The notes beneath the pieces are model-generated. The model was not told the origin of the DNA. It did no database searches and was given only the letters and a program-made list of their open reading frames with translations. The translations under genes and the position numbers were made by a program. Shown piece after piece: positions 16,676 through 61,674 of a DNA stretch of 64,000 nt (the first letter of the stretch is position 1; the number at the start of each line of letters is the position of its first letter). Origin of the DNA: Coniochaeta sp. PMI_546 (Eukaryota > Ascomycota > Sordariomycetes > Coniochaetales > Coniochaetaceae); NCBI GenBank assembly GCA_021432605.1, contig MU271146.1:62001-126000 (forward strand), read 5' to 3'.

Positions 16676-17189
16676 TAATAAGATACATGGGCACGCCTAT
16701 CTAGCATCTAAGTGAATCTTAACTTGCATATGAATGCCCATTTTATCGCCATTTACTGGAGTCCTGCATGATACCACGCCTATACCAAGTAATGAAGAGT
16801 TGACAGTCACTCCGCCTTCAAGACAGGTTTGTGAATTGGTTGCCATGTTGCAGGGGGGACAGAGAGGATGGCCGCCAAGAACTATGACGCAGTGTCCTCC
16901 TCCCACTCACTGCCTTCCATGGCGGCATCCTTCACAGCCAAACAATAAAACAGTATGTTTACCAAAACCGGTTCGCCGCACAAACGTCACTGCTAAACCT
17001 AAAAAGGTTTTATATACACTACTACACGTGTAGAAAACGTCTACAGGCCAAGCCAAACTTAAACTCTTTTCAAGAACTCTAAGCTTTAGACCAAGCACCT
17101 GCAGTACCTTAGTTTCCCTGCAAGATCCATCCCCGCACTCCGCACTACTGCACCAGAGCACGATCATCACCTCGGCATCGAAACCAATC
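16676..17189. other. Intergenic, promoter side of the Con-6 gene
   Basis: About 510 bases holding the SET gene 3' end and the Con-6 upstream region. Besides the TATA-like site and CACGTG listed separately, nothing specific is seen. Confidence 0.4.
17011..17018 (+). promoter_or_regulatory. TATA-like element upstream of Con-6 gene
   Basis: TATATACA lies 179 bases ahead of the Con-6 start codon and is followed by a CACGTG palindrome at 17025-17030. Position and sequence suit a TATA box for a strongly regulated gene; the assignment is inferred from position only. Confidence 0.35.
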
Positions 17190-17515
17190 ATGGATTCTCA
17201 AGGCGCCAAATCCGTCATGTCCAACGACATGAAGGAGCTTACTGAGGGCAAGGAGCAGATCTCCTCGCAGATTCGCGGCCATAAGGCGAATCTTGCCAAT
17301 CCCAGTTAGGAACCCCGTATATATATATAGCCTCACACGAAGACATGCGACGACTGACAGTCATCACCACAGACACGAGCGAGCAGTCGAAGGAGAACAG
17401 CAAAAAGATCATCGAGGACCTCGGCGGCGATGACACTCTGGAGTCTCATCGGCAGAAGCCGATCAGCAAGTCTGCTGCTGAAGAGTTGGAGGGCACCAGG
17501 GCTGCGGCGGCTTGA
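17190..17515 (+). CDS. con-6: Conidiation-specific protein 6 (Con-6) family, small hydrophilic protein
   Basis: Exons 17190-17304 and 17373-17515 (68-nt intron containing a TA repeat) give 85 aa. The join restores the family motif GHKANLANPN-TSEQSKENSK, which is cut by the intron inside the second Asn codon. The protein is rich in Lys, Glu, Ser and Gln with no hydrophobic core, as in the intrinsically disordered Con-6 proteins first described in Neurospora crassa. Those are made during conidiation and persist in dormant spores; a desiccation or stress protectant role is usually proposed. Only one clear copy of the repeat is present, with a diverged second half ending EELEGTRAAAA. Donor GTTAGG is weak but is the only one that keeps the motif. 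Confidence 0.85.
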
Positions 17516-18335
17516 ATCGCTGGTCTCAGAGTTGAGATTCTGAAATGGACTAGCATTGTAAGAGGCGAAGACTATCATTAGGGCATGGCAATTTGCACGC
17601 GTTCTGAACAATGACGTGTCACGGTATGGCTGGGTGATGTTGAGCGCATGGTTTGCTTCTTCCTACATTTCGATATTGTGAGCCTTGTTTTTCTACTGTG
17701 TTTAGCTCCCTCATCCGTTGATAGCTTCGTTGAACATATAATGACAAGGTCTTACTCAAGAACGCTGGCTCTAATTCAGAACGTCGTAATGATTTGATAG
17801 TTGATATCCCGACTGTGACCACGGATTCTTCACCGAGGAGCGCCCTTTTTCCTCGTTGCTACTAAGTCGTTATTCAGAGTTGATTTTACATGTTCCTAGT
17901 CTCGGTGAGCCTTGGAGATTATCTACGTGATCGATGATATCAGCAAGTTCATTGAAGTTTCACCCCGTTCTCTGGCATTGCACACTGCCAGCCTAACGTA
18001 CAGCACTTGTATACTATGAGTGATGACAAATAGCTACTTGTACACACAGTAACAATCATTCTTGTTGACGTAGATTCCACAAGTGATACTCGATGATCTT
18101 AGAAGTGGATGGAAGGCATAACTATATGTATATATATTGCACACCAGGTAAGGTCAGAAAGTTTAGTGTGTCGAGCGGACAAGTCTTCGAGACGAGGATC
18201 AACACCATTGAACTGACACGAAGTGTGTAGACCATCTTCAGCCCCTTCAGGAGCAACCAGCTGCACGGTGTCCATAAAAAGTAGATGTAGCAAATGAGGG
18301 AAATCATGATTCATCGCGCATCATCAATCAATGGT
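17516..18335. other. Intergenic between convergent genes
   Basis: Converging 3' regions of Con-6 and the flavin monooxygenase. AT-rich with a TATATGTATATATAT tract near 18123-18139. No gene seen. Confidence 0.4.
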
Positions 18336-20027
18336 CTAGCGTTGCTTCTTGGCCTCCTCCTCCTTCTTCCACTTCTCCCCCATGGCCTCAACCTCTCTAT
18401 TAGCCCTCTCAATGGCCTCTCTGGCGCCAGCCCAAGCCTTCCTACCCCTGCCAGTGTCGAAGAGTCGGTAGACGTACGGCGTGTCGATGCCGTTCATAAC
18501 CAGGTTGTAGAACTTCCGATCCCGCCACCAGAACTTCCAGCCCTCGACACCCCAAGCCGCGAGCTTCTCGTTGACTCCCGTGCCAGCCACCTCGTTCATC
18601 CACCGGTAGGTAGCCCGCCCCCGAGACCAGCGAAATCCGGGGTGGGGCATAGGCCCGTACTTCAGCATCGTCACGACAAAGTCGTAGTGCGCGTCGATAT
18701 CCCTCGCCATCTCCCCGGCCGACGGGACGGGCCACTGCCCGGACCAGACGCTCGCCAGCGCCATGGTCTCCAGATCCGAGACGACGAAAGGCGGCTTCAG
18801 GAACAGCATGGTCCCGATGAAGGCCAGAGACTCCGGGAACTGCTCGCTGATGTAGCCGTGGTACAGCCGGGGGAAGTAGGAGTGAGAGTTTGCGAACTTG
18901 GATTTGCGCATCCGCTCGAAGCCGTCGGGCGCCTTTTCCGGGTCTGTCGGGCTGCCTGCGCCGTGGATGAGGGAGAAGTCGTAGCGGTAGCCCGAGCAGA
19001 CGATCACGGCGTCGATGTCCTCCAGGACCGTCCCGTCCAGGAGTCTGACGCTCCGGGGCCCCGTGAAGGCCTCGATGCCCTGGCAGGTTTGTATGGCATC
19101 GCTCACCAAGTTCTGTGCAAGGTTGTTGTCAAAGTTTGGGACGCGGTGAGGTACTCCTTGCAGGATCCGCGGCTTTGCGAACGACGGGTGCGTCTTGAGG
19201 CCGGGGTATTCCTTGAACATCATGGCGGTCATGCCCTTGGTCATCAGCCTGCTCATGACAACAGGAGCCCAAGATGCGAGTGTTCGAAGAATTAGGCCCA
19301 TCCGGTGGGTCAAGGTGTGGTCGAAGGCCTTGCCGTTCTGCATCCGGGGCAGCACGATGAAGCTGTCGCGATGGCTGAGGTAGACCTTGGCACCGGCCGT
19401 CACCAGGAAGGACTGGGTGTCGGTCGCCGACGCACCGACTCCCACTACGATCACGTTCTTGCCCTTGTACTTCTCGGCATTCCGGAACTGACGAGAGTGG
19501 ATTATCTCGCCCTCGAACAGTTCGGAGCCTTTGTACTTTGGCAGGTTGGGCACGTTGAGCATACCGGTGACGACGACGACGCGGTCGAACAAGTGATCCG
19601 TGACGGGGCCATCAGGGCCTACTGTGAGATCACGCGTGGAGACAGTCCATTTGTTCAGCTCCTCGTTGCGCTCGACCTTGACAGCCTCGGTGTTCAGCTT
19701 GACATGCGGGATCAAGTCAAATTTCTGGGCGTACAGCTCCAGGTACTCCTGGACATGGGCTGCTGACGGATGTGTACCGGCATAGGACTGATACGGGAAA
19801 TCCGTGAAGGAGGACGCTTGTTTGGACGTGTTCTTGGTAGTCAGATCCAAGGCCGCCGTCTGGTCCGTGTTGGCCGAAGGGTGCCAGTTCCCACCTATGT
19901 ACCCCCATCGTTCGAATACCGTCACCTCGAGCCCTTGTTCGAGCAGATTCTTGGCGGCGTTCAGCCCAAATGTACCGGCCCCGACAACACAGACATGATT
20001 TCCAGGGTTGCGAGATGATGTGACCAT
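18336..20027 (-). CDS. Flavin-containing monooxygenase (FMO/Baeyer-Villiger type)
   Basis: Intronless, 563 aa. Motifs in order: FAD-binding GAGTFGLNAAKNL near residue 16, the second FAD contact FERWGYIGGNW, the FMO fingerprint region FEGEIIHSRQFRN (about residue 170), the NADPH-binding GVGASATD, and the C-terminal VIVCSGYRYDFSL. The enzyme uses NADPH and O2 to oxygenate a soft nucleophile (N or S) or a ketone; which it does cannot be told from sequence. It has no signal peptide but ends in a long basic/acidic helix (AREAIERANREVEAMGEKW). Length fits fungal FMOs. It lies next to a decayed aldehyde dehydrogenase, so the two may once have formed a small catabolic or secondary-metabolite pair. 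Confidence 0.92.
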   Translation of the reverse strand: MVTSSRNPGNHVCVVGAGTFGLNAAKNLLEQGLEVTVFERWGYIGGNWHPSANTDQTAALDLTTKNTSKQASSFTDFPYQSYAGTHPSAAHVQEYLELYAQKFDLIPHVKLNTEAVKVERNEELNKWTVSTRDLTVGPDGPVTDHLFDRVVVVTGMLNVPNLPKYKGSELFEGEIIHSRQFRNAEKYKGKNVIVVGVGASATDTQSFLVTAGAKVYLSHRDSFIVLPRMQNGKAFDHTLTHRMGLILRTLASWAPVVMSRLMTKGMTAMMFKEYPGLKTHPSFAKPRILQGVPHRVPNFDNNLAQNLVSDAIQTCQGIEAFTGPRSVRLLDGTVLEDIDAVIVCSGYRYDFSLIHGAGSPTDPEKAPDGFERMRKSKFANSHSYFPRLYHGYISEQFPESLAFIGTMLFLKPPFVVSDLETMALASVWSGQWPVPSAGEMARDIDAHYDFVVTMLKYGPMPHPGFRWSRGRATYRWMNEVAGTGVNEKLAAWGVEGWKFWWRDRKFYNLVMNGIDTPYVYRLFDTGRGRKAWAGAREAIERANREVEAMGEKWKKEEEAKKQR

Positions 20028-20492
20028 TCTGAAAGGCTGCGATATGAACTGCGGAACGGCAACAGTGGAAGCAAATGGGAGTTATTAGTTGCGACCGTTG
20101 GCAGAGTTGGTAGCTCGAACAATATCTATGCTCTAGCCTGCCTCCGAACTTATAAGCATGTTTTGTGGGGGGATGATCCGGGGTGAGATGCTACGCTGCC
20201 AAGGGGCGCGTACTCGCCTTGTTCCTTCGGATCCTCAGCCGCACAGGCTAGCGGATGTCACCTTTCCCGAAGGAGACAGTGACCAAGTGACGGCTGACAA
20301 GACTCACACGATACGAATACACGTCTTGATAAGCAGAGGATTCTGGTGCTGACACCTGCAGGGAACCGCCGTCTTGCCCTCAGTACACAGTATGAATTGC
20401 TGCACATCTACTGATGATGAGTAGTAGTCAAGGTCAATGAATCGTCTGCCACGACTGTCGTTGCTCAGACAAGAAGCTACCTACCACACCTT
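20028..20492. other. Intergenic, upstream of the FMO gene
   Basis: Promoter side of the FMO gene and 3' side of the aldehyde dehydrogenase remnant. No gene seen. Confidence 0.4.
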
Positions 20493-21063
20493 CTACTCAA
20501 AGGTCTTCTTCCACACCCAGATACTCCTCGAGTTGGTAAAGTGCCCGAAGCCCTCGATGCCCCATTCCATCCCGATGCCGCTCTCCTTGTGCCCTCCAAA
20601 CGGCACGTCGGGCGCGACATCAAAGTGTGAGTTGACCCAGACGCTCCCAGCACTGATCTGCCTCGCCATCTTCTCCGCCCTCGCCACGTCCCTGCTCCAC
20701 ACCGACGTGCCCAGCCCGGTCCTGAGCGCGTTCGCGCGCGCTCAATGACCTCCTCCTCGGCCGACCACTTCAGCAGCGGCACGAAAACGGCTCCTCGACC
20801 CCAATCCGCGAGTCCTCGGGCGGGTTGTCGATGATGGCCGGCTCGATGAAGTAACCTCTTGCCCGTCTCGCGCACCCTGCCCTCCAGCGCGACCTTCCAG
20901 CCGCACCTCTCGATCTCCGCGTACATATCCCTGACCAGCCCGAACTGCACGCCCTTCTGGATCGGCCCCGACGACGATGTCAGGCTCGAACCGTCGCCGG
21001 TCTCGAACCGTCCCCGGTCTTCATGTGCGTCCTGGTGAAGTCCACCATGGCATCGGTCATCAC
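20493..21063 (-). pseudogene. Decayed C-terminal part of an aldehyde dehydrogenase
   Basis: The three minus-strand frames together carry the last 185 or so residues of an NAD(P)-dependent aldehyde dehydrogenase. Blocks in order: FTRTHMKTGDG; GVQFGLVRDMYAEIERCGWK; YFIEPAIIDNPPEDSRIG; VPLLKWSAEEEVIERA; and the intact end GTSVWSRDVARAEKMARQI, GSVWVNSHFDVAPDVPFGGH, KESGIGMEWGIEGFGHFTNS. About three frame changes separate the blocks: one after the RETGK segment, one before VPLLKW and one after EEVIERA. An imperfect 17-bp tandem duplication lies near 20988-21022 at the upstream edge. The N-terminal part with the catalytic Cys and the NAD fold was not found, so it is both truncated and broken. Confidence 0.85.
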
Positions 21064-21720
21064 TAAGTGCGAGAGACGTATAGGTAACCTCGTCTACTTT
21101 CTGGTTCGTGGCTTGAAGAATGCCCTTCTAAACGCCATTGGATTTAATCCAACGAGGATCTCAATGGCTCGACGTCCAAGAACGGAGAGTAGACTACTAG
21201 TTTGATGCCGCGGTGTCGCAGTGCCACTAGACTGGCACATTATCCGTGACCGAGGTCTTGGGAAGTCTCCCTCCGATGGCCTGGACTGTGCCTGGTTGAC
21301 CGTTGAGGCTTGTTGGCATCACTCCCGACCTTTGTCCGTTGCCATTCTTGGTTCAGACTCCAAGTCGAACCAGCATGGGAATCGTTCAAGCTGTCGAGTC
21401 TGAGTGGATAGGGAGCGGGGAAGAAGGCGAACAGGTTCAAGTATCCACTGTCGGTGCCCGGCGCGACGTTGTTTGATCGGTTTGCCAGTGAGGAGGAGTG
21501 AGAACAAGGAGAGGGGCGCCAAGAAGGACAGTCCGAAGGCGGAGAAGATATCAAGGTCACGACGGAGTGGCGCATGCAGGGCCAGGAGATGGATGCTAAG
21601 GCGTTGGAGCGCGAGAGGAGGGAGAGCATTACGGCAGGATATCACGTCCATGTATAATGTAATCCCTACTGCCAAGGGTATCAATCTAGTCTTCAACTCC
21701 ATCCCATGCAGCCTCCCATT
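21064..21720. other. Intergenic between the dehydrogenase remnant and rvt
   Basis: No gene is seen, and I could not find the missing N-terminal part of the dehydrogenase here. The right end is the 3' flank of rvt. Confidence 0.4.
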
Positions 21721-24306
21721 CTATCCCTGCCACTTGAACCGGCTCTGCCTCAACATCCCCATGAGCCCCATGGGCAGCAGCCCCTTGTCCACCACATTCA
21801 ACCCCCCGAACCGCGCAATCATGTCCTTGCAGAACAGCTGCACAACCCACCGATCATACCCGCTGAGGGCATACCACTCCTCCTCCTCGGTCGCAGCCTT
21901 GACCGCTCCCTTCAGCTCCACGTCCCGCGCAACCGGCTCCGCCATAAGCCGATTATACGTGTTGTACAGCAGCACCGACGTGCGCTCGCGGTACCTCACA
22001 AACTCTTCGTGGGACATGAACTCCTCCCCACGCAGGCCGTCGAACTCCGACCCCCTCCTCGCCGCCGCCGCCGGCCCGGTCTCCTCAAACCGCTCCTTGG
22101 CCCGGCGGTACTGCGCCTCCTCGTCCTCGAGGAACTCATCCACCAGCCTCCCCGGATCTTCCACCGTGGAGTCGCGGATGAGGTACAGCGCGACGAAGGG
22201 GTTCTGCAGCCCCAGCCCGCCCATGCCGGGGGGGAAATACAGGTACCCGTCCGGCAGGTCCCGGACCCCGAACCGGGACGAGATCATCTTCTTCAGGCAC
22301 TCCCCGGCCCCGCCGGAGTCGGCCCCGAAGAGGGCGTGCTGGATGCGCTGGAACGTGGCCAGCATGCCGTCCACGTGCGCGCGGCCGTAGCAGTTGGCCG
22401 GCCGGCCGAAGTTGTTGGTGAAGAAGCGCACGCCGTAGACGTTCCACGCCTGGATCCAGTCGAAGACCGTCCTGCAGGCGCCGAGCTGCAGCCTCAGCTC
22501 GGCGATGTGCCTGTCCACCTCGCCCTGGTCGATCACAAACCGGCCGTTCTCAGGATCCAGCTTGAGAAAACCCCAGGTGACGTCCCCGCGGGGTAGCTTC
22601 GCCAGCCCCCTTTCGACCTCCCGGTCCTTCCGGACCAGGAGCGCCGCAGACCCGGTCTTGTCCATGTTGAACTCCAGCCCCGTCACGTCGGCAAACCGCA
22701 CCATGGCCTCCCACCCGGCGGCGCAGGTCTCCACGTCGCCCCACAGCCACATATCGTCGTGCAGCCGGTAAAGCCGCGTGCCCGCGTGGCGATTGACCGC
22801 AAAGTCCAGCACGAACAGCAGGCTCTCGCCAAAGTAATCCGCCAGCGGGGTGCTGAGCGGCGTCCCCCTCCTGCGGGTCCGGGCTTCTGCATCGGGCGGA
22901 TCCTGCGCGAACCGCAGGGGCGCCTCGAGGACGCGCCTGAAGAAGTCGAGCCAGCCGGCCTCGACGCCCAGGAACTCGAGGACGGCGAAGATGGTCGAGT
23001 GGGGGATCGAGGGGCCGAACCACTTGAAGTCGGAGCGGATGACGACCATGTCCCTGCCCAGCTTGCGGCGGAGTATGACCTCCGTCTCGATCATGTGCAG
23101 CAGCTCCTGCGTCACCTGGCCGTGGCCCTTGCGCGTGTCCTCGCGCTCCGACCTGTCGTCGCCGTAGGACCCGCGCACCTCCTCCATGGCAGCCGGCAGC
23201 TGGTCGAGGAACACCGAGTCCCTGAAATGCGCCTCTCGCTTCCCCTCGACCGTGGTGGCAGCCGCCACCGTCTCCTGGCCGCCGAGGAAGTACTTCCGCC
23301 TCCGCGCGTCCTCCTTGGTGATGGGCGCGGCATCGGGCCTCCACACGCCCTCGGCCCCGACAAAGGCCACCAGGGCCGCGCGCAGGTGCACTGCGAAGCG
23401 GCGCCCAACATAATAGATGAGGATGGCGTGCAGCAGGTCCTCGTCCGGGTAGAACCTGTAGCGGCCGTTGAGGTTGCGCCTCTGCTCGACGACCTGGGCG
23501 GCGCCCCATGACCACGACGAGCGCGCCGCCAAGCGCATGTTGAGCACGTCGGCGATTTCCGTCAGGACGACCGGGTTGCCTAGGAAGTCGCGTAGGCTGG
23601 CCCGCTTGGCGTCGCTGAGCACGTCGGACCGCAGCATGCCCTTGATGCAGGTCGAGACGGTGTCCTGGTCGAAGTGGACGCCGCCGCCCTGGCTCTGGCT
23701 GCTGCCGATGCCGGACTGCTGGAAGTCCTTGACGGACTGGACGAGGGCGTCGTAGGCGCGCTTGATGTCCTTGGAGCCGGAGGTGAAGATGTGCTCGAGG
23801 TAGGCCTTGATGGCGGCGCCGTCGGTGTGCTTGGGGTGGAAGACGTAGGCCTCCCAGGTGGCGCGCTGCTGGTGCATGTCCTCCCTGCCGACGGGCTCGA
23901 AGCCTTCTTCGTTGTGGTCGTCGGCGACAGAGGTCCACTCGTCGACCAGGTTGCCGTAGAGGGAGGCGAACTCGTACTTGGTGGACTGGACGTCGAGGTC
24001 GTTGCGCAGGGTGGCCTCGTAGTCTCTCAGAAGGTACTCGGACACGGCCGGGTCGTGGTCGGCCTGGTCGACGAAGCGGGCGAGGTTGGCGAGGGAGACG
24101 GTGGGGTTGGCGGCCATCATGGAGGGCAGGGTGCGGATGCCGTGCAGCAGGGCCCTGGCGCGCTTGCGGGTGTCGGTCTCGGAGGCGACGTCTTCCAGCA
24201 GGGCGCGCTTGCGGGACTCGTAGTCTGTCCTCTGGTTCTGCAGCTGGGAGAGCTTGATGGCGGTGATGGAGGAGAGGGTGTGGGAGAGGATCTCGGAGGA
24301 GGCCAT
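21721..24306 (-). CDS. rvt: RVT: cellular reverse-transcriptase-related protein (rvt gene)
   Basis: Single exon, 861 aa from the ATG at 24306. The same frame is open 48 codons further upstream, but that stretch is pyrimidine-rich leader. Domains: an N-terminal helical, probably coiled-coil region (about residues 10-60); a long N-terminal part without known fold; a reverse transcriptase palm and thumb (about 400-640); and a C-terminal extension to the stop. RT landmarks: motif A VVIRSDFKWFGPSIPHSTIF (Asp about 426), motif B GTPLSTPLADYFGESL (about 481), motif C RLHDDMWLWG (Asp pair about 517-518), motif D GLEFNMDKTG (Lys about 550), and the thumb-side WGFLKLDPENGRF. This combination, HDDxWLWG followed by WGFLxLD, marks the rvt genes known from fungi and some other eukaryotes and bacteria. 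All catalytic positions are kept. No RNase H, endonuclease, integrase or flanking long repeat is present. Confidence 0.93.
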   Translation of the reverse strand: MASSEILSHTLSSITAIKLSQLQNQRTDYESRKRALLEDVASETDTRKRARALLHGIRTLPSMMAANPTVSLANLARFVDQADHDPAVSEYLLRDYEATLRNDLDVQSTKYEFASLYGNLVDEWTSVADDHNEEGFEPVGREDMHQQRATWEAYVFHPKHTDGAAIKAYLEHIFTSGSKDIKRAYDALVQSVKDFQQSGIGSSQSQGGGVHFDQDTVSTCIKGMLRSDVLSDAKRASLRDFLGNPVVLTEIADVLNMRLAARSSWSWGAAQVVEQRRNLNGRYRFYPDEDLLHAILIYYVGRRFAVHLRAALVAFVGAEGVWRPDAAPITKEDARRRKYFLGGQETVAAATTVEGKREAHFRDSVFLDQLPAAMEEVRGSYGDDRSEREDTRKGHGQVTQELLHMIETEVILRRKLGRDMVVIRSDFKWFGPSIPHSTIFAVLEFLGVEAGWLDFFRRVLEAPLRFAQDPPDAEARTRRRGTPLSTPLADYFGESLLFVLDFAVNRHAGTRLYRLHDDMWLWGDVETCAAGWEAMVRFADVTGLEFNMDKTGSAALLVRKDREVERGLAKLPRGDVTWGFLKLDPENGRFVIDQGEVDRHIAELRLQLGACRTVFDWIQAWNVYGVRFFTNNFGRPANCYGRAHVDGMLATFQRIQHALFGADSGGAGECLKKMISSRFGVRDLPDGYLYFPPGMGGLGLQNPFVALYLIRDSTVEDPGRLVDEFLEDEEAQYRRAKERFEETGPAAAARRGSEFDGLRGEEFMSHEEFVRYRERTSVLLYNTYNRLMAEPVARDVELKGAVKAATEEEEWYALSGYDRWVVQLFCKDMIARFGGLNVVDKGLLPMGLMGMLRQSRFKWQG

Positions 24307-24955
24307 TATGGAGGTGTCGTATGATATTGAAGGGCAGGAGGGTGTGGGATGACGAGAGGAGGTATAAGGAATGGTGAGACGAGGAAGGGCAAAGAGCTGG
24401 CTGAGTGAGTGAGTGCAGGTTGGAGGTGGACAGATGGACAGGACAGTCAAGAAGAGTCAAAAGGAGGTGAGGGTGGTGGGATGCCCTGCCGACTATTTAT
24501 CTCCAGCTGGAAGCAACCTTACTAGAGTGAAGACAGAGATAGTAGAATGCCATCCATCCAATGAAGTCTCCAGATCTTGGCAGGTGGTGATCACTTCGAT
24601 CCAACATTCCCAACTACCAACTACCACCTACCCGTCAAGGGAAAGGCAATCCGTGACTCAATCGGGCAGCTACATCGTCATCATCATCACAGGCAGTTAT
24701 TCATGGAGTAGCAGTAGACCATCTCATATCACCAACTTATGAGCAAGACGGTGTAGCTAGGCCTTTCCATGCTTGATACTTGATACCGTGATGGTTGAAA
24801 AAGACGACATCGGCCTGAGTCACTCTCTGATTCTCGGGCTGCCTCTTCTGTAACTTGACGTCTCTCCAGGAATCCGCGCTGCATCCGGATGACTGAGAAA
24901 AGCCATCAGTTGATAGAAACCATCAGATACCTCGTGTCTGGTTGCCATGACATCA

Positions 24956-24990
24956 ATTGATTGATTTCTTGATTGATTGAATTGATTGAT
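24956..24990. repeat. TTGATTGA simple repeat
   Basis: A run of imperfect TTGATTGA units, with TTGATTTC and GAATTGATTGATT variants, in the shared rvt/CDC16 upstream region. Simple sequence; no function assigned. Confidence 0.7.
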
Positions 24991-25036
24991 TCTGCATGAT
25001 TGTTATCTGCCAGCGAGTGAATGTTTCGGCGAGAGC

Positions 25037-25076
25037 CCACTGAAGTCCACTGGAGCCCACTGGAGTCTACTGGGGT
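25037..25076. repeat. Four 10-bp tandem units
   Basis: Four consecutive 10-mers read CCACTGAAGT, CCACTGGAGC, CCACTGGAGT and CTACTGGGGT. They sit between two divergent promoters and could be a small array of factor sites or slippage. Seen directly in the sequence. Confidence 0.8.
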
Positions 25077-25499
25077 CTAGCAGGGACGACCCCTCCATAG
25101 CCCCACCTCGTGTCTCGCTCGCCATGTTGACTTTTGGACGCGACGACCGCGTTAAGAGAGTAAAACTGATCAAACAGAATGATCATCAGAGTCTAATCAT
25201 TAATCATTTGTGCAACACCTCGACGACGTGACAACCGCCGTAACGAGAGAAGCAGCACAGCGTGTCGGACTGTACAGCTTCGACAGGTATCTTGCTACTG
25301 TCTGCCATTTGCACGTCAAGAGTCACCAACTTGTCCGACCACACGCACACAGAGACAAACACACCACGCCATTTGCTGCCCACGGCTGGCTTGATTATCT
25401 GGCTTGCTGTGGCCTCCTCATCTTGACGGACCTCTTCCTGGGGGGCAATGATTTGACTCCAAAAGACACCGCGCATCATAGTCTCGACGCCTCGCGAGC

Positions 25500-27587
25500 A
25501 TGGAGAAGTTCCTGAGAGAATGGCGCCAGGATGCCCTCAACAAGGCCCAGTACGACTCGGCCATCTTCATCGGCGACAAGCTGCTGGCCATGACAAGTGA
25601 GTTAGTTTCTATATACATATCTATGGTCATGTTGACTGACACGTCAATCACCCCCTCTACTACAACAGACGACGATAACGACGCATTCTGGCTGGCACAG
25701 GTCCACTTCGCCCACGGCAGCTACACCAGAGCCCAGGTCCTGCTGTCCAAACAAGACCTCGTCAGCCGGAACCCCTCGTGCCGATACCTCGCTGCCCACT
25801 GCCTGATCAAGCAGTCCAGATACGACGAGGCCCTCGCCATGCTGGGCGAGCGCAACCCGACACACCTGATCCACACCACCTCCGCCACGAAACGAAAGAC
25901 GCAGCATGCCCGCCCCAAGACATCATCGTCGTCAGCCAAGCTGCCCAGCGCGAGACGACGAGACGCGGCAGCCGACGAGGAGGAGGAGACATCCAACCGC
26001 CGCTACGAGGCCGCCATGTGCTACCTGCGCGGCATCTGCTTCGCCAAGCAGAACGCCTTCGACCGCGCCAAGGAATGCTACAAGGACGCCGTGCGCATAG
26101 ACGTGCAGTGCTTCGAGGCCTTCAACCAGCTGATGAAGAACTCGCTCATGTCCCCGGACGAAGAGGAGTCCTTCCTCGAGTCGCTCGACTTCGAGTCCAT
26201 CAGAGCAGTAGTAACTCCCTCCTCCCACTCACCGGACACAGCAGCCGCCCCTGCACCCGCCGAGACAGCCACCACCGCCGACGAGACAGCCGCCGACGAC
26301 GACGAGCCGGCCGACTACGTGCACATGCTCTACCAGACCCGCCTCAGCAAGTACCGCAACCCGCGCGCCTTCAACACCGCCGTCGAGAGCCTGTCGACCC
26401 ACTACGGCCTGGCCGACAACGCCGACATCCTACTAGCCCGCGCCGACCTGCTGTACACCCAGTGCCGCTTCCGCGACGCCCTGGCCGTCACCAGCTCCGT
26501 GCTGGACGCGGACAAGTACAACTTCGCCGCCTACCCGCTGCACCTGGCCTGCCTCTTCGAGCTCAAGATGGCCAACGCCCTGTTCCTCGTCGCCCACGAC
26601 CTGGCCGACCACCACCCGGACGAAGCCTGCACCTGGCTGGCCGTCGGCACCTACTACTTCTCCACGGGCAAGATCGCCGAGGCCCGCCGCTACTTCTCCA
26701 AGGCGAGCATGATGGACCCCCACTTCGGCCCGGCCTGGATCGGCTTCGCCCACACCTTCGCCGCCGAGGGGGAGCACGACCAGGCCGTCTCGGCCTACTC
26801 CACCGCCGCCCGCCTGTTCATGGGCACCCACCTCCCGCAAGTCTTCCTCGGCATGCAGAACCACGCCATGAACAACATGACCGCCGCCGAGGAGTTCCTC
26901 AAGACCGCCTACGGCCTGTGCGCCAGCGACCCTTTACTCCTAAACGAGATGGGGGTGGTCATGTACCACCAGGACCGGCTGAGGGAGGCCGCCGCGGTGT
27001 TCCAGCAGGCCCTCCGGACGGCGGACGAGATGGGCTCGGACCCGGCCGCCTGGCTGCCCGCCCGGACGAACCTGGCCCACACCTACCGCCGGCTGAGGCT
27101 GCACGGCCAGGCCCTCGGGGAGCTGGACCGGGTGCTGCGCGAGGGAGGGAGGGATGCGGATGTCTTTGCTGCCAAGGGCCTGGTGTTCCTCGACCAGGGA
27201 CGGGCGGAGGAGGCGGTAGGGGTCTTGCATGAGGCGCTGGCTATTCATCCGCAGGATCCGATTGCTACGGAGCTGCTTAATAAGGCGCTCGAGGAGACGG
27301 TGGGGGGGGTGGTGGCTGCTGCTGGGGTGGAGGAAGGGGAAGGGGAAGGGGAAGAGGGGGAGATGGAGGCTTTTGAGCGGGAGCTGGGGATGAGGAAGGC
27401 GGAGGCCGGGGAGAGGATGGTGGGACGGCTGAGGGGTGGGAAGGGGAGGGGGAAGGAGGGTGGTCGAGGGAGTGCGAGGGGGACGGGGAAGGGGAAGGGC
27501 AAGGCGCGGTCGGAGGCTTTTGGTGGTCGGCGGGAGGGGAGGGAACAGAGTCTCATGGATATCACGGATGATGAGGAGGTTAGGTGA
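25500..27587 (+). CDS. CDC16: Anaphase-promoting complex TPR subunit Cdc16/Cut9 (APC6)
   Basis: Exons 25500-25596 and 25669-27587; the 72-nt intron is a multiple of three, so the frame stays open through it. The spliced protein is 671 aa. It is a TPR scaffold subunit of the APC/C, the ubiquitin ligase that drives exit from mitosis. It starts with the helix EKFLREWRQDALNKAQYDSA and continues as stacked TPR pairs: FWLAQVHFAHGSYTRAQ, CYLRGICFAKQNAFDRAKEC, AVGTYYFSTGKIAEARRYFS, AWIGFAHTFAAEGEHDQAVS, NEMGVVMYHQDRLREAAAVF and AAKGLVFLDQGRAEEAVGVL, which match Cdc16 in order. A low-complexity insertion lies near residues 110-150, a Pro/Ala/Thr-rich one near 215-250, and a Glu/Gly- then Gly/Lys/Arg-rich tail fills about the last 90 residues. 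Essential in yeasts. Confidence 0.95.
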   Translation: MEKFLREWRQDALNKAQYDSAIFIGDKLLAMTSELVSIYISMVMLTDTSITPSTTTDDDNDAFWLAQVHFAHGSYTRAQVLLSKQDLVSRNPSCRYLAAHCLIKQSRYDEALAMLGERNPTHLIHTTSATKRKTQHARPKTSSSSAKLPSARRRDAAADEEEETSNRRYEAAMCYLRGICFAKQNAFDRAKECYKDAVRIDVQCFEAFNQLMKNSLMSPDEEESFLESLDFESIRAVVTPSSHSPDTAAAPAPAETATTADETAADDDEPADYVHMLYQTRLSKYRNPRAFNTAVESLSTHYGLADNADILLARADLLYTQCRFRDALAVTSSVLDADKYNFAAYPLHLACLFELKMANALFLVAHDLADHHPDEACTWLAVGTYYFSTGKIAEARRYFSKASMMDPHFGPAWIGFAHTFAAEGEHDQAVSAYSTAARLFMGTHLPQVFLGMQNHAMNNMTAAEEFLKTAYGLCASDPLLLNEMGVVMYHQDRLREAAAVFQQALRTADEMGSDPAAWLPARTNLAHTYRRLRLHGQALGELDRVLREGGRDADVFAAKGLVFLDQGRAEEAVGVLHEALAIHPQDPIATELLNKALEETVGGVVAAAGVEEGEGEGEEGEMEAFERELGMRKAEAGERMVGRLRGGKGRGKEGGRGSARGTGKGKGKARSEAFGGRREGREQSLMDITDDEEVR

Positions 27588-28328
27588 TGGGACATGGCCG
27601 CTTTTATTATCCTTTTTGTCATTGGTATTTATGGGATTGGCACGGGCTTGTTTGATTATTACAGGTAGAGAGTACTACACATGGCGATGGCGTTTTGGTG
27701 GTGGTCAAAACAAAGGTAGGGAATGGTCATTGAGAGAAACAGCTATCTGATACCACGATACAGGACGGTTTCATAGGAGAGTAGTAGTAGCCTGTGACTG
27801 TAGCAGTATGGTAGAGAGGGATAGGATAAGAGAGAAAGACAGAGAGAGACAGAGATAAAGAAGGGTGCGGACACGCCGTATTATCGAGGTGCCTAGTGGT
27901 GTGTGTCTCAGCTCGCATTCGCCTAAACGGCCATTGGCTCTTTTCCGAAATAAGCCTTTGTCCTTGGGGATCATCCCGATTGGGACTGGGTCGGCCCCCA
28001 AGGAGACATCAGTTGCGCCGTGTCGTCGGCGGTGGCCTGACGCGATGGAACAGTAGAATATATAAGCACACGGCCATATCACGATCGTGTGAGATCCCGT
28101 GTGAAGTAATGTACATGTTGATGCATTGTTGACTACCACATGCACTGTCTAGACACACGGCTATAAGTCCCCCTGTGTCTCTCTCTATCTCATTCAACAT
28201 CTACTCAATCCGTTTCCTCACGTTAATAACAACACACCATTTACATTCTTACAGTCCCTCCAGAGGAAGAAGAAGAAGAGAAGGAAAAGGAAACAAAAAA
28301 AAAGGGCCCCCAAGGCAGTCAAATCACA
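27588..28328. other. Intergenic
   Basis: Contains the CDC16 3' end, a purine-rich GAGAGAGACAGAGA tract near 27810-27860 and an A/G-rich leader just ahead of the next start codon. No gene seen. Confidence 0.4.
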
Positions 28329-28826
28329 ATGTCCCGCCTCTTCCCCCACCCCGACTACGCCGAAGACCAGCCATTCGGGCACACGATCCTGGCCCTGCAC
28401 GCGCTCTCCCGCGGCTTCGCCCTGGGCGCCGGCGCCGGCTCGGCCATCCACCTCGTCCGCCGGCTGGTCCGCCCTGGGTCCCCAACGCCGTCCCTCCTCG
28501 CCAGCTCCGGGACCGGGGCGCTGGTCGGCACGGGACTGCTGGCGCTCGGCCTGCTGGGCCGCATGAGGGGCCGGGAGGAGATTGAGTGGAAGGATCGGAG
28601 CTGGAGGTTGTTGTGGAATCGCGGCCAGAAGGAGGTGGATGACTGGTTGGTCGCGGGGGCGGTGCTGGGTGCGGCCGGGGTGGTGGTGGCTAGGAGGGAG
28701 CTGAGGGGGTTGGGTGCGAGGGCGGTAATTGGGGGGATGGGGCTGGGGGGTCTGGCTGGGATGCTGGGGCAGTCGGCGTGGAGGTATGGGATTAGGGGTG
28801 GGTTTGAGGAGGAGAAGGTAGTCTGA
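28329..28826 (+). CDS. Small hydrophobic fungal protein of unknown function (possibly DUF1757)
   Basis: Intronless, 165 aa. After a short polar start (SRLFPHPDYAEDQPFGHTIL) it has several Gly/Ala-rich hydrophobic segments (GFALGAGAGSAIHLV, GTGALVGTGLLALGLLG, LVAGAVLGAAGVVVA, RAVIGGMGLGGLAGMLG) that look like three or four membrane spans with GxxxG-type packing. Length and layout resemble a fungal family of about 150-aa uncharacterised proteins (DUF1757, by memory). An organelle inner membrane would suit the composition. The start has AATCACAATG context and follows a purine-rich leader. Function unknown. Confidence 0.7.
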   Translation: MSRLFPHPDYAEDQPFGHTILALHALSRGFALGAGAGSAIHLVRRLVRPGSPTPSLLASSGTGALVGTGLLALGLLGRMRGREEIEWKDRSWRLLWNRGQKEVDDWLVAGAVLGAAGVVVARRELRGLGARAVIGGMGLGGLAGMLGQSAWRYGIRGGFEEEKVV

Positions 28827-29060
28827 GGACGGTTGGCGATGGATGGCGGAGCAGATTGTCCATGCTGAGTCCTGGTGAGGCATATATTGTGTACAGCAAT
28901 TGGATGTGGGCTTATGGTAAGGCAAAAGGTGGAACAGGGCGTTTGGAGTCGTGTGAAACAGTTCTCCTCTAATGCTTATATATATCCAGGTGTTGCTTCT
29001 ATAAGGGTTAAGCAAACACAGCATCGCGATGTTTTCACCCGTCTATGCACACCTCTGTCT

Positions 29061-31298
29061 CTAAAGCTTCTCCTTGGGCCCGACCACCTCCTCGACCCTG
29101 GCGAACTGGTAGTAGTACTCCAGACTCTCCGGGTTGGCAAGCGTCCCGCTGGCCTTGATCTCCTGCCCGGACACGATCTGCTTCACCGGCAGCTCGACCT
29201 TCTTCAAGTTGATCGTATGCTGTGAGTCCCCCCCGTCTGTTAGTAACCCCATGTCCAACAATACATGCAGATGGAAATTGCAACTCACCGGTATCTCGGG
29301 CGTCTCAAACACATATCTCGGCACGTGCCGCTTCGACAGATCCCTCCGGATCGCCTCCTTGACCTCGTTGGCCAGCTTCCTGTCGAACTTGTGGCCCGGC
29401 TTCATCAGCAGGAACAGCATGACGCTCTCGTCCTCGTCCTGCGGCCTCCTCTGCCCGACGCACAGCGAGTCCTGGACCCGGTCGACGAAATACCTCTCGA
29501 CGACCGAGTAGATCTCGGCCGACCCGAACCGCACCCCGGACGGGTTGAGCACCCCGTCCGCCCGGCCGAGGAAGAAGATGTTGCCCGTCTTCGGGTGCAC
29601 GCAGCAGAAGTCGCCGTGCGCCCAGACGTTGTCGAAGCGCGCAAAGTACGCGGCGTGGTACTTGGACCCCGGCGTCGCGACGGGAGTCTTGTCGTTCCAG
29701 AAGCAGCACGGGATGTTGGGGAAGGACGCCTTGGCCACCAGCTCGCCCGGGGTGCCGTGCTCGACTTCCTTGCCGGGGCCGTCCGGCTCGAGGGCGTCGT
29801 AGATGGCCACGTGGACGCCGAGCGAGGGCCCCTGCGTGCCGCCGACGTAGACTGGTGTGAGCGGGTTCATCACACCGAAGCAGCCAATCTGGGTTTTAGC
29901 GTTCATGTTAGTACACGGTCAAGATGATGATGACTATTAGGAAGGGGGAGGGGAAGAGAGGTGAATGCCCATGGCAGAACTCACAATGTCCGTCCCGCCA
30001 GATATGTTAGCCAGGTGCACATGCCCGGGGAACCCCTTGTCGTAGAACCACTCAAACAGCTGATCGCTCAGCACCATGCCCGTGCACGTCACGATGCGCA
30101 GGCTGCTCAGGTCCGCGATCTCCCTCGGCGCGATCCCGCTCTTGACCAGCTCGCCCATCCACCGCGGGCTGATGCCCAGCTTCGTGACCCTCTCCCTCTC
30201 GGCGATCTTGACAAGAATCGTCGGGTCGGGCTGGAACGGGCTGCCGTCGTACATGACCGTGCGCCCGCCGAACATGAGGATGAAGACGTTGGCCACGTAC
30301 ATGATCCACCCGACCGTGGTGTACTGCATCGTCACCTCCTCCGGGCCCAGGCCCTCGTGCAGCCTGCCCTCCTTGAAGTAGTTGATCAGCGCGCCGCCGA
30401 CGGAGTGCACGATCGCCTTGGGTATCCCCGTGGTGCCGGACGAGTAGCAGATCAGGAACGGCTCGTGGAAGGCGATGCGCACAAACTCCGGTACGGGATC
30501 CTTTGCCGCGCGGTCGATGAACGCCTCCCACGTCTCCGCCTTGGGGACGGCGGAGATGTCCTTCGCCTTCTCGAACCGCGGGATGACCACCACACCCTGG
30601 AATCCCCTGCTGCCGCTCAGCCCCTCCACGGTCTCGGCGATCTTGGACCTCAAGTCGACCGTCTTGCCGTTGTACACCGCCGCGTCGTCGAAGAACAGCA
30701 GCTTGGGCTCGACCTGCACGGTCCGCTGCAGGATGCCCTTGACGCCCATGTCCGTGCTGCTGCTGCTGAACACGGCCCCCAGCCACCCGGCCGCGATCCA
30801 CACGCACAGCGTCTCGACGCTGTTGGCGCCCACCACGACCACCCGATCCCCCCTCGTCACGCCCCGGGCCTTCATCCCCGCCGCCAGCCGGCCGGCCCTC
30901 CTCCTCAGCTCTCCCCAGGTGACGTGCCTGGTCGCGCTGGCCCCCTCCCTGACCTCGGTGACGGCCACGTCGCCGTCCCTCTTGACGGACGCGTCGTTGG
31001 AGTACAGCAGGTTCTCGGCGAAGTTGAGCGACACGCCCTCGAACCAGCGCGGCACGGCGGAGATGGGCAGCGACTCGTCCACGACGCGGGCCACGGTGCC
31101 GGAGTAGATGAAGTCGGCGGCGTGGAAGACGTCGGCCCAGAAGCGGGAGCGGTGGGCGAGCGAGTAGTCATGCAGGTCCTGGAAGGTGCGGAGGGAGAGG
31201 CTGTGCTTCCTGTTGAGGGACTGGAGGAACTGGTGCATCGGTGTCGACTCCGGGTCCGGGTGCTCCCATAGTTTCCGGGGTATGACTGCGGGGTCCAT
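29061..31298 (-). CDS. Acetoacetyl-CoA synthetase
   Basis: Exons 31298-29985, 29888-29289 and 29219-29061 (introns 96 and 69 nt, both phase 0) give 690 aa, the normal size. The enzyme ligates acetoacetate to CoA with ATP in the cytosol, feeding sterol and lipid synthesis and helping use of leucine and ketone bodies. Features: the N-terminal ACAS-type segment ending WFEGVSLNFAENLLY; the adenylation P-loop FLICYSSGTTGIPKAIVHS; the hinge region FFLGRADGVLNPSGVRFGSA; and the C-terminal Lys-bearing loop near GQEIKASGTLANPES. The middle join ISGGTDI-IGCFGVMNP restores a core block. The start at 31298 (MDPAVIPRKLWEHPDP) matches the family; the in-frame ATG 13 codons upstream does not. Confidence 0.95.
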
Positions 31299-32741: not shown

Positions 32742-35700
32742 TTACAAATACGGCATCCACAAGGCATCGCACATGGCCAGGTGCATCGGATTGACCGCCT
32801 TGGCAATGAGGTCGATCACCGTCTGGTTAGCCGGCAGGTTGCCCACCGGCGCCTGCGCGAGGCTGACCGCCTTCTTGACAATCATCTCGCTGTTGGTCTG
32901 CACCGACGACCGGAGCTGCTCCTCCGTCAGCGCCGACGCCCTGTGGTTGCTCGTGAACCAGAACATCATCTCGTCCCTCACAAACAGCGTCAGCGCGTGC
33001 TCCAGCTGGAAGTCCGGCTCCGTCAGGCACCGCGCGATCGCCATCACCGAGCAGCTGTAGATGCCCTCCGTCGCCAGCGGGCCCATGAGCGTCTGCAGGT
33101 TGGGCGTGAGCCGGAACGGCACCGGCTCCTGGTTGTGGAAGAACGGCTTCGTCGGCGCCATCGACGCCATCAGCTCGTTGCTCCAGATGTTGCCCGACCC
33201 CCGCGCAATGTTCATCTTGTGCGGATACCGCTTGTCGATGTGCAGGATGTACGTCATGAACGTCAGCGCCGCGAGCTGGTACGAGAAGCGCCGCCGGAAC
33301 AGCCAGAACTCCGAGAACTCGGGATACGCCGCTTGGAAGTACTCCAGCGCGACCGTGTGCGGCACCCACTTCTCCTGGATCGCCGTCAGCACTTCGAGCC
33401 GTGCCGTGACACCTTGGTCGCCAGGCTTCTGCAATCGAGCGTCAGTCAATGTTGTTAACCTGAAAATTTTCAAAAATCGCCGTGTCACTTACAGTTCCCT
33501 TAGTCTCCATAAGCCCCCTCAGCTTGTCCATGGTAAACAGCACAGGCTCGTCCTTGGAGATGCCGCTCCTGCGGCAGTGATCTTCGTAGATCCCCTGCAG
33601 CGTGATCCACGAGGTGTCTTCCGACACAATCCTTATGTGCGGCGCAAGAGGCACCATCAGTGGCAGGGTAAACTGCAGGTCGCGCCGTCGGCTCTCCTTC
33701 TTGCTGCCCAGCGTCTGGTTCAGCTGTCGGAAGAGCTGCACTATCCGCTCTTCACGCCGACACTGCCGCGCCGCCGGGTGCTGCACGGCGAACGGGTGAA
33801 CACTGCCGTCGTGGCCGCGCATCTTCAGGCGGCGGTGCGAACCCACGATCGTCCGGACGAGATCCACGTCGGGCAGAAACCGGTCGATACGGATGAAGTC
33901 CTGGTTCTTGTCCTTATGCTGCAGGTATTGCCCCGGGATCTCCACCTCGTCGAACTTGTTGTACCGGAACTCGCTGAGATGCTGCGAGTAGTGCTCCAGC
34001 GGGATCTTGCAGTGCCGCCGGTCCAGCTTCTCCTCAAACTTGTCTCGCCACTTGCGCAGCTTGTGGATGTACTCGTACATTGTCGGCTTCACCTGCACAA
34101 AGTCTGCCTCGAATGTTGACCTGATGTGAGCCGGCAATATCGTCTCAGCAAACCGGGTAATGTTGGTCTCGGTCGCGGCAGGTAGCTTCACGTCCCGCGC
34201 GTAGGACGTAGGCATGCGACTGACATACGCCAGCGCATCGTTGAGGAGAGCGACGATGAGACGGTAGGCATCCTCGTCCGGAGGGCACTTGAAATTCTTT
34301 TGTATCTGATCCACCATGGTCTCCATCGACAAAGCAAGCAGAGGGAAAGCGGTCTTGAGAACACTCATAATCTCCTCAGTAAGGTCCCATGGCTGCTTCT
34401 TCTGCGCGCCTTGGGTCTGCTCCGGCACCGGCATCCCGTTAGCCGCCGCAGCGGATTGAGCCTGCGCAGCGGCGGGAGCAGGAGTCCCGTTCGGCTCGCC
34501 CCCTTCGGTCTTGGGCTGCACGGTGCCTTCGCCGTTTGCTGTCGCAGGCCTCGAGGTAGAACCTTCCGTCTTGGTTGCTGGGGTGTCTTGCCTCGTCTGC
34601 TGTGGAGAGCTGCTCGGCTTGCCGGCCTGGGCTTGAGCCTGGGCCTGGGCCTGGGCCGACTGTGCCCGTCGCATCTTCTCCTTGGCAGCCTTGGCCTCCT
34701 GGTTCTTCTTGATCGCCAGCATGTCCTCCCTGCTGGTTCTGAGCTGGAAGTAGAGAGCCTGTGGATAGCTCTTGGCGATCTTGAGCAGGATAGGATGCAC
34801 GCGCGGAGCTTCCTTGTGACCGAGACCGGTGAGAAGCTGAGGGATGTACGTGATCCAGTACCACACAGGGATGTCGCCCTTGTAGTCGTCGAACCCTTCG
34901 GCGATCGTACCCTTCGCATCGTCGAGGCTGAGGAGCCAGAGAATGCGCGCTATGAGCTTCCTCGCCTTGTGGTTCTTGTAGCTCGACGCAGCTTGCAGGT
35001 AGCTGGTCAGCGCCTGTTTGGCCGCGCTCAGATCCTTGGGATTCTCCTTGAATTGGCGGTCGTTGAAGTAGCCCCATTCGGCCCAAGCCTTGGCTGCTGT
35101 GATGTCGAAATACAATGCTGTGCCGTACGCCGTGTTGGCCTCTTCCTTCTGGCGCAACTTCTCCAGGAACATGCCCTTCAGAGTGTAGAACTCTGCCTTC
35201 TGCGGTGCACTGAAGTAATTAAGATTCGTATTATTAATCACATCGAGACCGCTCGACAGCTCGTCCGGGTTCTGGTAGTGGCATTTCGCCTGCTCCCTCA
35301 GCTTCAAGAACGCTTCCTGGATCTCAATGTTAGGCAGAGTGTAGATGCGGCTGAGCTGGCTGATGCAGACATCCGGCAGGTTGTGCTTTCTCGCGACGTG
35401 CGCGAAGCGGTTGATGATCCATGCCGTCTCGTGATAGCCACGGTATGCGAACGATGCCCCGCTTGTGTTTTGCCCTGCCGGCGGCAACAGCTGTAGGTAC
35501 GTATTGTTAATGAGACCAAAGATATGCTGCCTCCAGGTGACGAGATCCTGCCAGGCGACGATGTCATCCCACGTGTTGGGGAGTCGGTCTCTCCATGCGC
35601 CTAGGAGTAGCTTAAGCTCCCCTGACTTAGCATCAAGATTCTCACGCGTTGTGTTGGCAAGGCTGTTGCAAATCACAGACGCATCGTGCAGCTCAACCAG

Positions 35701-60813: not shown

Positions 60814-61674
60814 ATGCCCCTATCAGAAGAACTGAACGACGAGGTCGAAGCCATAAACTCCATATACGGTCCCGGAACCCTGTCCGAGTCGAGCGATGAC
60901 CCGACCATATTCATCCTCACCCTTCCTGAGGAGACTGTCTCTCTTCGTCTCCAGTTCTCGCCGTCGTACCCAGGCGAACCGCCGTCCGTACTGGGGACCC
61001 ACAGTGTCGGAGAGCACGGCAAGCGCGGTGCTGCGGCCCGGGACCTGGAGCTGTTCCGGCAAGCCGTGGCTGCCGTGTACGAGCCGGGCCAGGTATGCCT
61101 CTTCGACGCGATTGAGAAGCTCAAGGAGCTCCTGGAGTCAGCTGCGGAAGACGAAGGTACACACGCGGCCCCGACACGTGAGGAGACCGGATATCCTGAG
61201 GCTGACTCGGCCGCTGACAAGGTACCTACCACGGCCGCCTCTTCGATGCCGGAACCCCCGTGGGTGCTGTCGGATCCCGTAGTAGAGATGAGATCCACCT
61301 TCGTCGCGCGCTGCGCGGTAGTCACCTCGCCAGAACAAGCGTTTCAGAACGTCCAGCACCTCCTGGCTACGGACAAGAAAGTGCGCACGGCGACGCACAA
61401 CATCACGGCCTGGCGCATCCGGGGACCCAACGGCACGTCCTTCCAAGACTGTGACGACGACGGCGAGACGGCTGCCGGGGGCCGGCTGCTGCACCTCATG
61501 CAGCTGATGGATCTCTGGGATGCCATGGTCGTCGTCACGCGCTGGTACGGCGGCCAGAAACTCGGCCCGCGCCGGTTTGCAGTCATCAACATGGTTGCTC
61601 GAGACGCCTTTGTGAAAGCCGGACTCGTGGCCGAGACACCGGCTACGAAAAAGAAGGGACATGGGAAGACTTGA
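60814..61674 (+). CDS. yih1: Yih1/IMPACT homologue (RWD plus UPF0029 domain)
   Basis: Intronless, 286 aa. An N-terminal RWD domain (about residues 5-110) opens LNDEVEAINSIYGPGTL and contains the LQFSPSYPGEPPSVL turn. An acidic, low-complexity linker follows. The C-terminal ancient IMPACT/UPF0029 domain (about 150-265) has ATHNITAWRI, CDDDGETAAGGRLL and the signature VVVTRWYGGQKLGPRRFAVI. In yeast and mammals this protein binds Gcn1 through its RWD part and so keeps Gcn2 from being activated, linking actin and growth to amino-acid-starvation control of translation. Cytosolic. Start codon in CACCATGCC-like context (GAAACCATGCC). It lies tail-to-tail with a CASTOR-like gene. Confidence 0.94.
   Translation: MPLSEELNDEVEAINSIYGPGTLSESSDDPTIFILTLPEETVSLRLQFSPSYPGEPPSVLGTHSVGEHGKRGAAARDLELFRQAVAAVYEPGQVCLFDAIEKLKELLESAAEDEGTHAAPTREETGYPEADSAADKVPTTAASSMPEPPWVLSDPVVEMRSTFVARCAVVTSPEQAFQNVQHLLATDKKVRTATHNITAWRIRGPNGTSFQDCDDDGETAAGGRLLHLMQLMDLWDAMVVVTRWYGGQKLGPRRFAVINMVARDAFVKAGLVAETPATKKKGHGKT

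Follow-up and report, generated by a model that had tools for sequence, protein, structure and literature searches.

What is a lone gene related to reverse transcriptases (RTs) doing beside a core cell-cycle gene, and could its product be a working enzyme? The question was asked of a 64,000-nucleotide stretch of Coniochaeta sp. PMI_546 (contig MU271146.1; the whole stretch is referred to as the window), in which the original prediction had placed an uninterrupted 861-aa frame, read as a domesticated rvt gene. An open reading frame (ORF) was found exactly there on the minus strand, running from an ATG at 24306 to 21721 (861 codons and a stop, 0 internal stops), and by its sequence it is a full-length fungal rvt protein. 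The gene is one more rvt, a host-gene class already known and poorly understood, and not a new family; what would be new beyond that class are CPC-1-type promoter sites and a Prp8-like C-terminus. The favoured reading, held at a probability of about 0.75, is that this single rvt gene encodes a starvation-induced, multimeric, non-templated and probably tyrosine-primed polymerase. The gene and its parts are as follows.

21721..24306, minus strand: rvt gene, 861 aa, intronless and intact (ORF call, relatives, genome search, alignment)
23902..24306, minus strand: N-terminal helical region, residues 1-135, with long AlphaFold2 helices; candidate multimerisation region
22540..23520, minus strand: RT fingers and palm, about residues 263-589, with D426, RGTPLS, HDD 516-518, K550 and WGFLKLD 578-584
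21724..22539, minus strand: thumb and linker, residues 590-861, Prp8/R2-like, with GGLGL 696-700, Y817, W820, F833-G834-G835 and LLP 843-845

The RT landmarks that had been claimed were all located (D426, H516-D517-D518, RGTPLS, K550), as was the WGFLKLD segment. D426, D517, D518 and K550 were found without exception in alignment A1, which holds 29 of 121 sequences; residue counts elsewhere refer to the rvt protein and 120 relatives. Among these, D426, G481, K550, W578 and W820 were kept in 121/121, D517 and D518 in 120/121 (the remaining row was a gap) and Y817 in 116/121. The Pfam RVT_1 model gave no score in this rvt protein at E ≤ 1 and scored in 15/29 family members (best E 8.8e-8), so the assignment to RTs was made through the family and the fold. 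An insertion of about 130 residues was predicted between the strand at 283-288 and the D426 strand, with motif limits judged by eye and modelled helices at 291-317, 331-341, 353-365 and 395-415; a large insertion (loop 2a) between RT motifs 2 and 3 is given as an rvt hallmark in an excerpt of PMC5718144. Where a coiled-coil N-terminus had been proposed, AlphaFold2 placed long helices at residues 4-41, 46-59 and 90-129, and the predicted fold from about 136 to 850 appears as one co-linear RT, thumb and linker module of the LINE/Prp8 type (LINE, long interspersed nuclear element) without a nuclease. When solved structures were searched with the predicted model, LINE proteins (R2, LINE-1) were best; DRT9 also matched, up to model residue 714-716, ahead of the RVT linker, and families missing from the fold tables could still match RVT. 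By sequence, PDB gave no match to the whole rvt protein at E ≤ 1 and weak unrelated rows to the whole-family profile (best E 0.072), and these searches found no RVT structure there.

Relatives were sought among 5.8 billion proteins; 8000 candidates were scored, 202 were relatives, and the best 120 of these were listed, covering 86-100% of the query. Identities were 98% to an entry labelled 'lgn', 82% to Coniochaeta ligniaria, and 52% each to Sordaria macrospora and Neurospora tetrasperma. Full-length relatives occurred in Sordario-, Leotio- and Orbiliomycetes, and in a length-restricted search that listed 120 proteins, the rows bearing an organism name were all fungi. When bacterial and archaeal genomes were scanned twice with fungal profiles, 32 and 64 sequences matched the pattern and 0 were confirmed as relatives; the patterns were fungal, so the empty scans say nothing on the published bacterial rvt genes. 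In IMG/VR one search came back empty and another gave 36 pattern matches, of which none was confirmed, and plasmids and NCBIfam gave no match. The suggested phylogeny against fungal rvt proteins was built from 35 rows (34 hand-picked named fungi and the PMI_546 protein). It paired rvt with C. ligniaria (support 100/100) within an 11-row Sordariomycete set (99/97), and Leotiomycetes (93/99), Orbiliomycetes and Eurotiomycetes each lay on one side of a branch. As far as protein sequences tell, the gene tree is vertical at the C. ligniaria node.

As a proxy for constraint, percentage protein identity was compared between RVT and the neighbouring gene CDC16 (PMI_546 gene model) over 8 pairs. Near pairs gave 82/83 (RVT/CDC16; C. 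ligniaria) and 74/78 ('lgn' contig), intermediate ones 60/67 (Thozetella), 55/68 (Parathielavia) and 53/69 (Podospora didyma), and distant ones 49/67 (Fusarium falciforme), 54/67 (Colletotrichum plurivorum) and 51/64 (Scytalidium). RVT divergence was 1.0-1.5 times that of CDC16, which suggests that RVT changes about as an essential cell-cycle gene does at short range, and that the ratio rises to about 1.5 at most between distant relatives.

Genes of this class are reportedly RT-related cellular genes (Gladyshev and Arkhipova 2011), and the 2018 RVT paper is said, by its title, to concern multimerisation and protein priming. Under the favoured reading, amino-acid shortage or stalled translation would lead CPC-1/Gcn4 to activate rvt, a control that we infer from the promoter. 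The N-terminal helices would then bring RVT into a multimer, which would add nucleotides with no outside template. Synthesis would probably begin on RVT's own C-terminal tyrosine region, at Y817 or near it; both this residue and the position of the tail are inferred, the latter from Prp8 homology, which would put the region at the foot of a segment (the alpha-finger/1585 loop) that extends across the thumb towards the active site. The product would help the cell through stress. The chain from starvation through CPC-1 and rvt to a self-primed multimer is drawn from the promoter sites, the placement of the linker and a reported starvation role: the part seen of a meeting report (PMC10680173) states that rvt genes help to overcome amino-acid starvation or certain antibiotics, and that RVT polymerises without template and requires intact catalytic residues.

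Several points weigh against this account, some of them shared with the alternatives below. Y817 may not be the primer, since it is not fully invariant, and selection on rvt was judged from protein identity.

For the promoter, the following features were recorded.

24654..24660, minus strand: TGASTCA site of the CPC-1/Gcn4 type, 354 bp ahead of the rvt ATG
24816..24822, minus strand: TGASTCA site of the CPC-1/Gcn4 type, 516 bp ahead of the rvt ATG
24493..24501, minus strand: TATA-like GATAAATAG, box read by eye, followed by a CT-rich leader
25500..27587, plus strand: CDC16/APC6/Cut9 (TPR), divergent neighbour

The leader held no upstream ATG after -247. A promoter site of the TGACTCA type, a feature of the CPC-1/Gcn4 regulon, was thus present in two copies, and the rvt/CDC16 intergenic region held 2 of the 5 TGASTCA sites in the window. 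Part of PMC7289440 describes TGACTCA as bound by CPC-1, and a figure legend in PMC3199737 names the motif as the cross-pathway control element. Both sites fit the meeting reports of rvt induction, though the statistical case against chance is modest. Five amino-acid genes of the same genome, whose names are our assumption and whose start codons are our reading, served as controls, and 4/5 carried an upstream TGASTCA: a his-3-like gene (339 bp before the start), a ketol-acid reductoisomerase gene (two sites, 349 and 458 bp), and the genes for argininosuccinate synthase (450 bp) and tryptophan synthase (505 bp), with one site apiece, counted from the first matched codon. A second histidinol-dehydrogenase gene had no upstream site.

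The alternative that survives best is that the two sites are there by chance or for CDC16, and that rvt is induced by another route; this is a serious possibility, though short of an even chance. When the intergenic region was simulated 5000 times with a first-order Markov model, 6.9% of the runs held at least two sites, so the pair is not very improbable by chance, and the region is shared with CDC16. Against chance, 18 sites in 190 kb of background (19 stretches) included 0 neighbouring pairs within 200 bp, and 106/8379 sliding 1193-bp windows elsewhere (1.3%) held at least two. Among 55 ORFs of at least 250 aa examined with 600 bp upstream, four carried a site and rvt was the only one with two. 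The sites are also closer to rvt than to CDC16, with a spacing like that of the his- and ilv-type genes.

The Prp8 likeness of the C-terminal region was suggested by fold comparison and then tested by profile alignment. With hhalign, the RVT C-terminal profile scored 35.3 against Prp8 (P = 3e-4), a level reached by 0/400 column shuffles (maximum 30.8). A single Prp8 sequence scored 34.2 against the C-terminal RVT profile; 134 other ORFs reached at most 22.4, and TERT, at 15.4, stayed at background level. The C-terminal region of RVT therefore appears to have the fold and a detectable sequence of a Prp8/R2-type thumb and linker, the sequence part coming from Prp8 and the R2 likeness from the modelled fold only. 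Taken whole, RVT seems to be a relative of the polymerase module of LINEs and Prp8, active and with no endonuclease.

It is unlikely that this C-terminus instead arose by convergence, with helices packing on an RT core and no shared ancestry. Helical domains readily reach middling Z scores, Foldseek of the isolated C-terminal model fell short of significance, its best hit being a Prp8 chain at E 0.088, and an unguided PDB search with the C-terminal profile returned weak unrelated rows (best E 0.061) with Prp8 absent. The second hhalign segment, which carries W820 and GG, was weak by itself (P = 0.046). This, the Foldseek result and the unguided PDB search count against the favoured reading. 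Against convergence, the sequence profile is concordant in both position and register, at the scores just given for the shuffles, the other frames and TERT. A bolder version of the Prp8 relationship is tentative, and we would sooner doubt than accept it: RVT would be a catalytically live stand-alone Prp8 cousin, wired to CPC-1, whose tail of the form Y817-x2-W820-x13-GG-x7-LLP places the priming tyrosine. Under this version the block from Y817 to LLP would be equivalent to the helix that lies at the foot of the alpha-finger/1585 loop in Prp8, where the counterpart of the tail touches RNA at the splicing centre.

Compared with known systems, the PMI_546 gene agrees with rvt/RVT genes in being a full-length, single-copy orthologue with an RT core bearing a large insertion, no nuclease, and extra N- and C-terminal regions, with close relatives in Neurospora and Sordaria and no family-defining difference. 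It differs from R2/LINE non-long-terminal-repeat (non-LTR) retrotransposon proteins in having no endonuclease domain and no further copies. RVT keeps the catalytic aspartates, whereas Prp8, of about 2400 aa and with further domains, has an inactive RT. TERT differs in that rvt gave no Pfam match to a telomerase RNA-binding domain. The DRT9/Abi protein-primed RTs are bacterial, scaffolded by a non-coding RNA and antiviral, and their structural match stops before the RVT linker; DRT9 is described as a protein-primed, oligomeric RT in the portion seen of PMC12483538. RVT might be imagined as templated, with an unrecognised RNA scaffold like that of DRT9 or telomerase, and not as a terminal transferase. 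We regard this as quite unlikely: non-templated polymerisation is stated in the part seen of the meeting report (PMC10680173), and no Rfam family reached its own threshold in 17000-30000, a search that an undescribed RNA would escape.

In the 33.5-Mb genome, neither the rvt protein nor 5.1 kb of DNA from the gene region matched anything but itself; rvt is single-copy here, as rvt genes were said to be. At least 124 RVT_1 matches were found in this genome, with stops inside 123/124, mostly TAG or TAA; by our count, 19 rows contained one TGA. Stops rich in TAG and TAA are the signature left by repeat-induced point mutation (RIP), and the ruined matches are consistent with past RIP. The rvt gene itself, too divergent for the model, lies outside the 124. 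The only open match (C8:731217-731492) was telomerase (Telomerase_RBD E 2.1e-22, TERT_C 9.8e-10), and the TERT of the genome is a gene separate from rvt (L002:3342-5132). Of the RT-like genes located, those that remain intact are therefore telomerase and rvt, and the mobile ones are ruined.

The gene was also said to stand alone, without RNase H, endonuclease, integrase or long repeats, and the searches for nuclease and RNase H domains and for repeats agreed. No nuclease or RNase H domain and no apurinic-endonuclease-like (APE) or restriction-like (RLE) endonuclease was matched by Pfam (E ≤ 1), and the ORF stops after the linker. In 19500-26500 there were no direct repeats of at least 20 nt, and the inverted pairs, three in number, were short and imperfect. 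RIP indices over rvt were not elevated. Third-position GC was 0.93 for rvt, 0.85 for the CDC16 ORF, and 0.92, 0.79 and 0.58 for AMP-binding/ACAS_N, FMO-like and SET-domain neighbours. A search for further copies, element ends or a linked endonuclease found none. As to a best match among LINE or LTR elements, the sequence leads to RVT proteins, but the fold has R2 and LINE-1 as its best solved structures. That rvt is a recently captured or decaying LINE/LTR copy, open by luck, is highly improbable: these nearest folds and a genome rich in RT copies speak for it, and against it stand the single copy without nuclease or RNase H domain or visible element boundaries, the full-length relatives in three classes, the grouping with a sister species, and an open frame where 123/124 RVT_1 matches are riddled with stops. 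The view of rvt as an intact cellular gene is thus borne out by orthology, copy number, kept catalytic residues and the pairing with C. ligniaria. Of the word 'domesticated', the intact, single-copy, full-length orthologue stands; the mobile ancestor was assumed.

The neighbour had been called a core cell-cycle gene, correctly, and is transcribed divergently from rvt, at 1193 bp from ATG to ATG. The CDC16 ORF probably reads through one or more introns, and a 645-aa gene model exists. Linkage in relatives was judged from identical longest-contig sizes in the protein searches. Six cases shared a size: 8,042 (P0248/P0132), 30,861 (P0008/P0127), 372,297 (Thozetella), 3,225,153 (C. ligniaria), 3,731,975 (Parathielavia appendiculata) and 3,941,250 (Podospora didyma). 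The three short contigs are informative; the three chromosome-sized ones may reflect no more than a common chromosome. Eight named species were matched by eye in both lists; 4 shared a contig size and 4 differed (C. plurivorum, Scytalidium lignicola, F. falciforme, and F. duplospermum, whose entry has 363 aa and sits on a contig of 10.9 kb). The proposed synteny with CDC16 would then recur in some relatives.

Downstream of rvt, at 20506-20693 on the minus strand, lies an aldehyde-dehydrogenase-like C-terminal remnant (SVWVNSHFDVAPDVPFGGHKESGIGMEWG..., family recognised by eye), apparently a broken gene and absent from the listed PF00171 matches of the genome. Three genes related to the amino-acid response lie within 40 kb of rvt, possibly by chance.

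60814-61674, plus strand: RWD+UPF0029 protein, which we take to be YIH1/IMPACT-like, a Gcn2 regulator
62105-63199, minus strand: ACT_7 protein, presumably CASTOR-like
33442-44382, minus strand: Tra1, 3646-aa ORF

Further observations concern the relatives. Orbiliomycete (nematode-trapping) RVTs (P0089, P0099, P0103, P0106) nested inside the Sordariomycetes (98/96), which suggests horizontal transfer, although an adjoining long Clonostachys branch may mislead. N-terminal extensions ahead of a conserved MASS-type start were seen in P0055, P0081, P0089 and P0106 (A1); by eye they resemble mitochondrial presequences and may be artefacts of gene models. For the rvt gene, a near-cognate start further upstream was considered as a possible source of such an extension. 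Some divergent fungal RVTs carry, within the insertion before motif A (A3 columns about 570-640), a stretch resembling the tail of histone H3. When the H3 tail was run against 240 RVT-list proteins, 11 exceeded 50, the highest score from 20 shuffled tails, with 141 (P0271) and 139 (P0323) at the top and 52 at the bottom, and 120 CDC16 proteins reached at most 41. The stretches lay at 138-176 in P0271, 430-466 in P0323, 417-450 in P0283 and 138-173 in P0270, with 7 more, and the H3 core motif STELL[IL]R occurred in 0/240. All 11 fell into one 16-row clade (SH-aLRT 100) of a quick 38-row tree, and the other five rows of the clade held shorter remnants (KQTARK in P0280, P0313 and P0315; STGGKAPR in P0345; KQTARA in P0325). 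One was named, Lachnellula occidentalis, in an entry titled 'histone H3'. The stretch is missing from the PMI_546 protein, and a literature search on it in RVTs found no paper. It would be striking if a cellular RT did carry such a histone mimic, here seen in predicted protein sequences.

A passage of PMC5718144 presents rvt as the one RT group that bacteria and eukaryotes share, and as being of obscure origin. For such a family the locus offers two handles. CPC-1 and two named sites would explain the reported induction under starvation or a block of translation, and the placement of the C-terminus by Prp8 and R2 suggests both a site for the priming tail and an origin for the family. Should the bolder Prp8 relationship hold, the ancestor of the spliceosome core protein would have its best active model in RVT, which ranges from bacteria to fungi.
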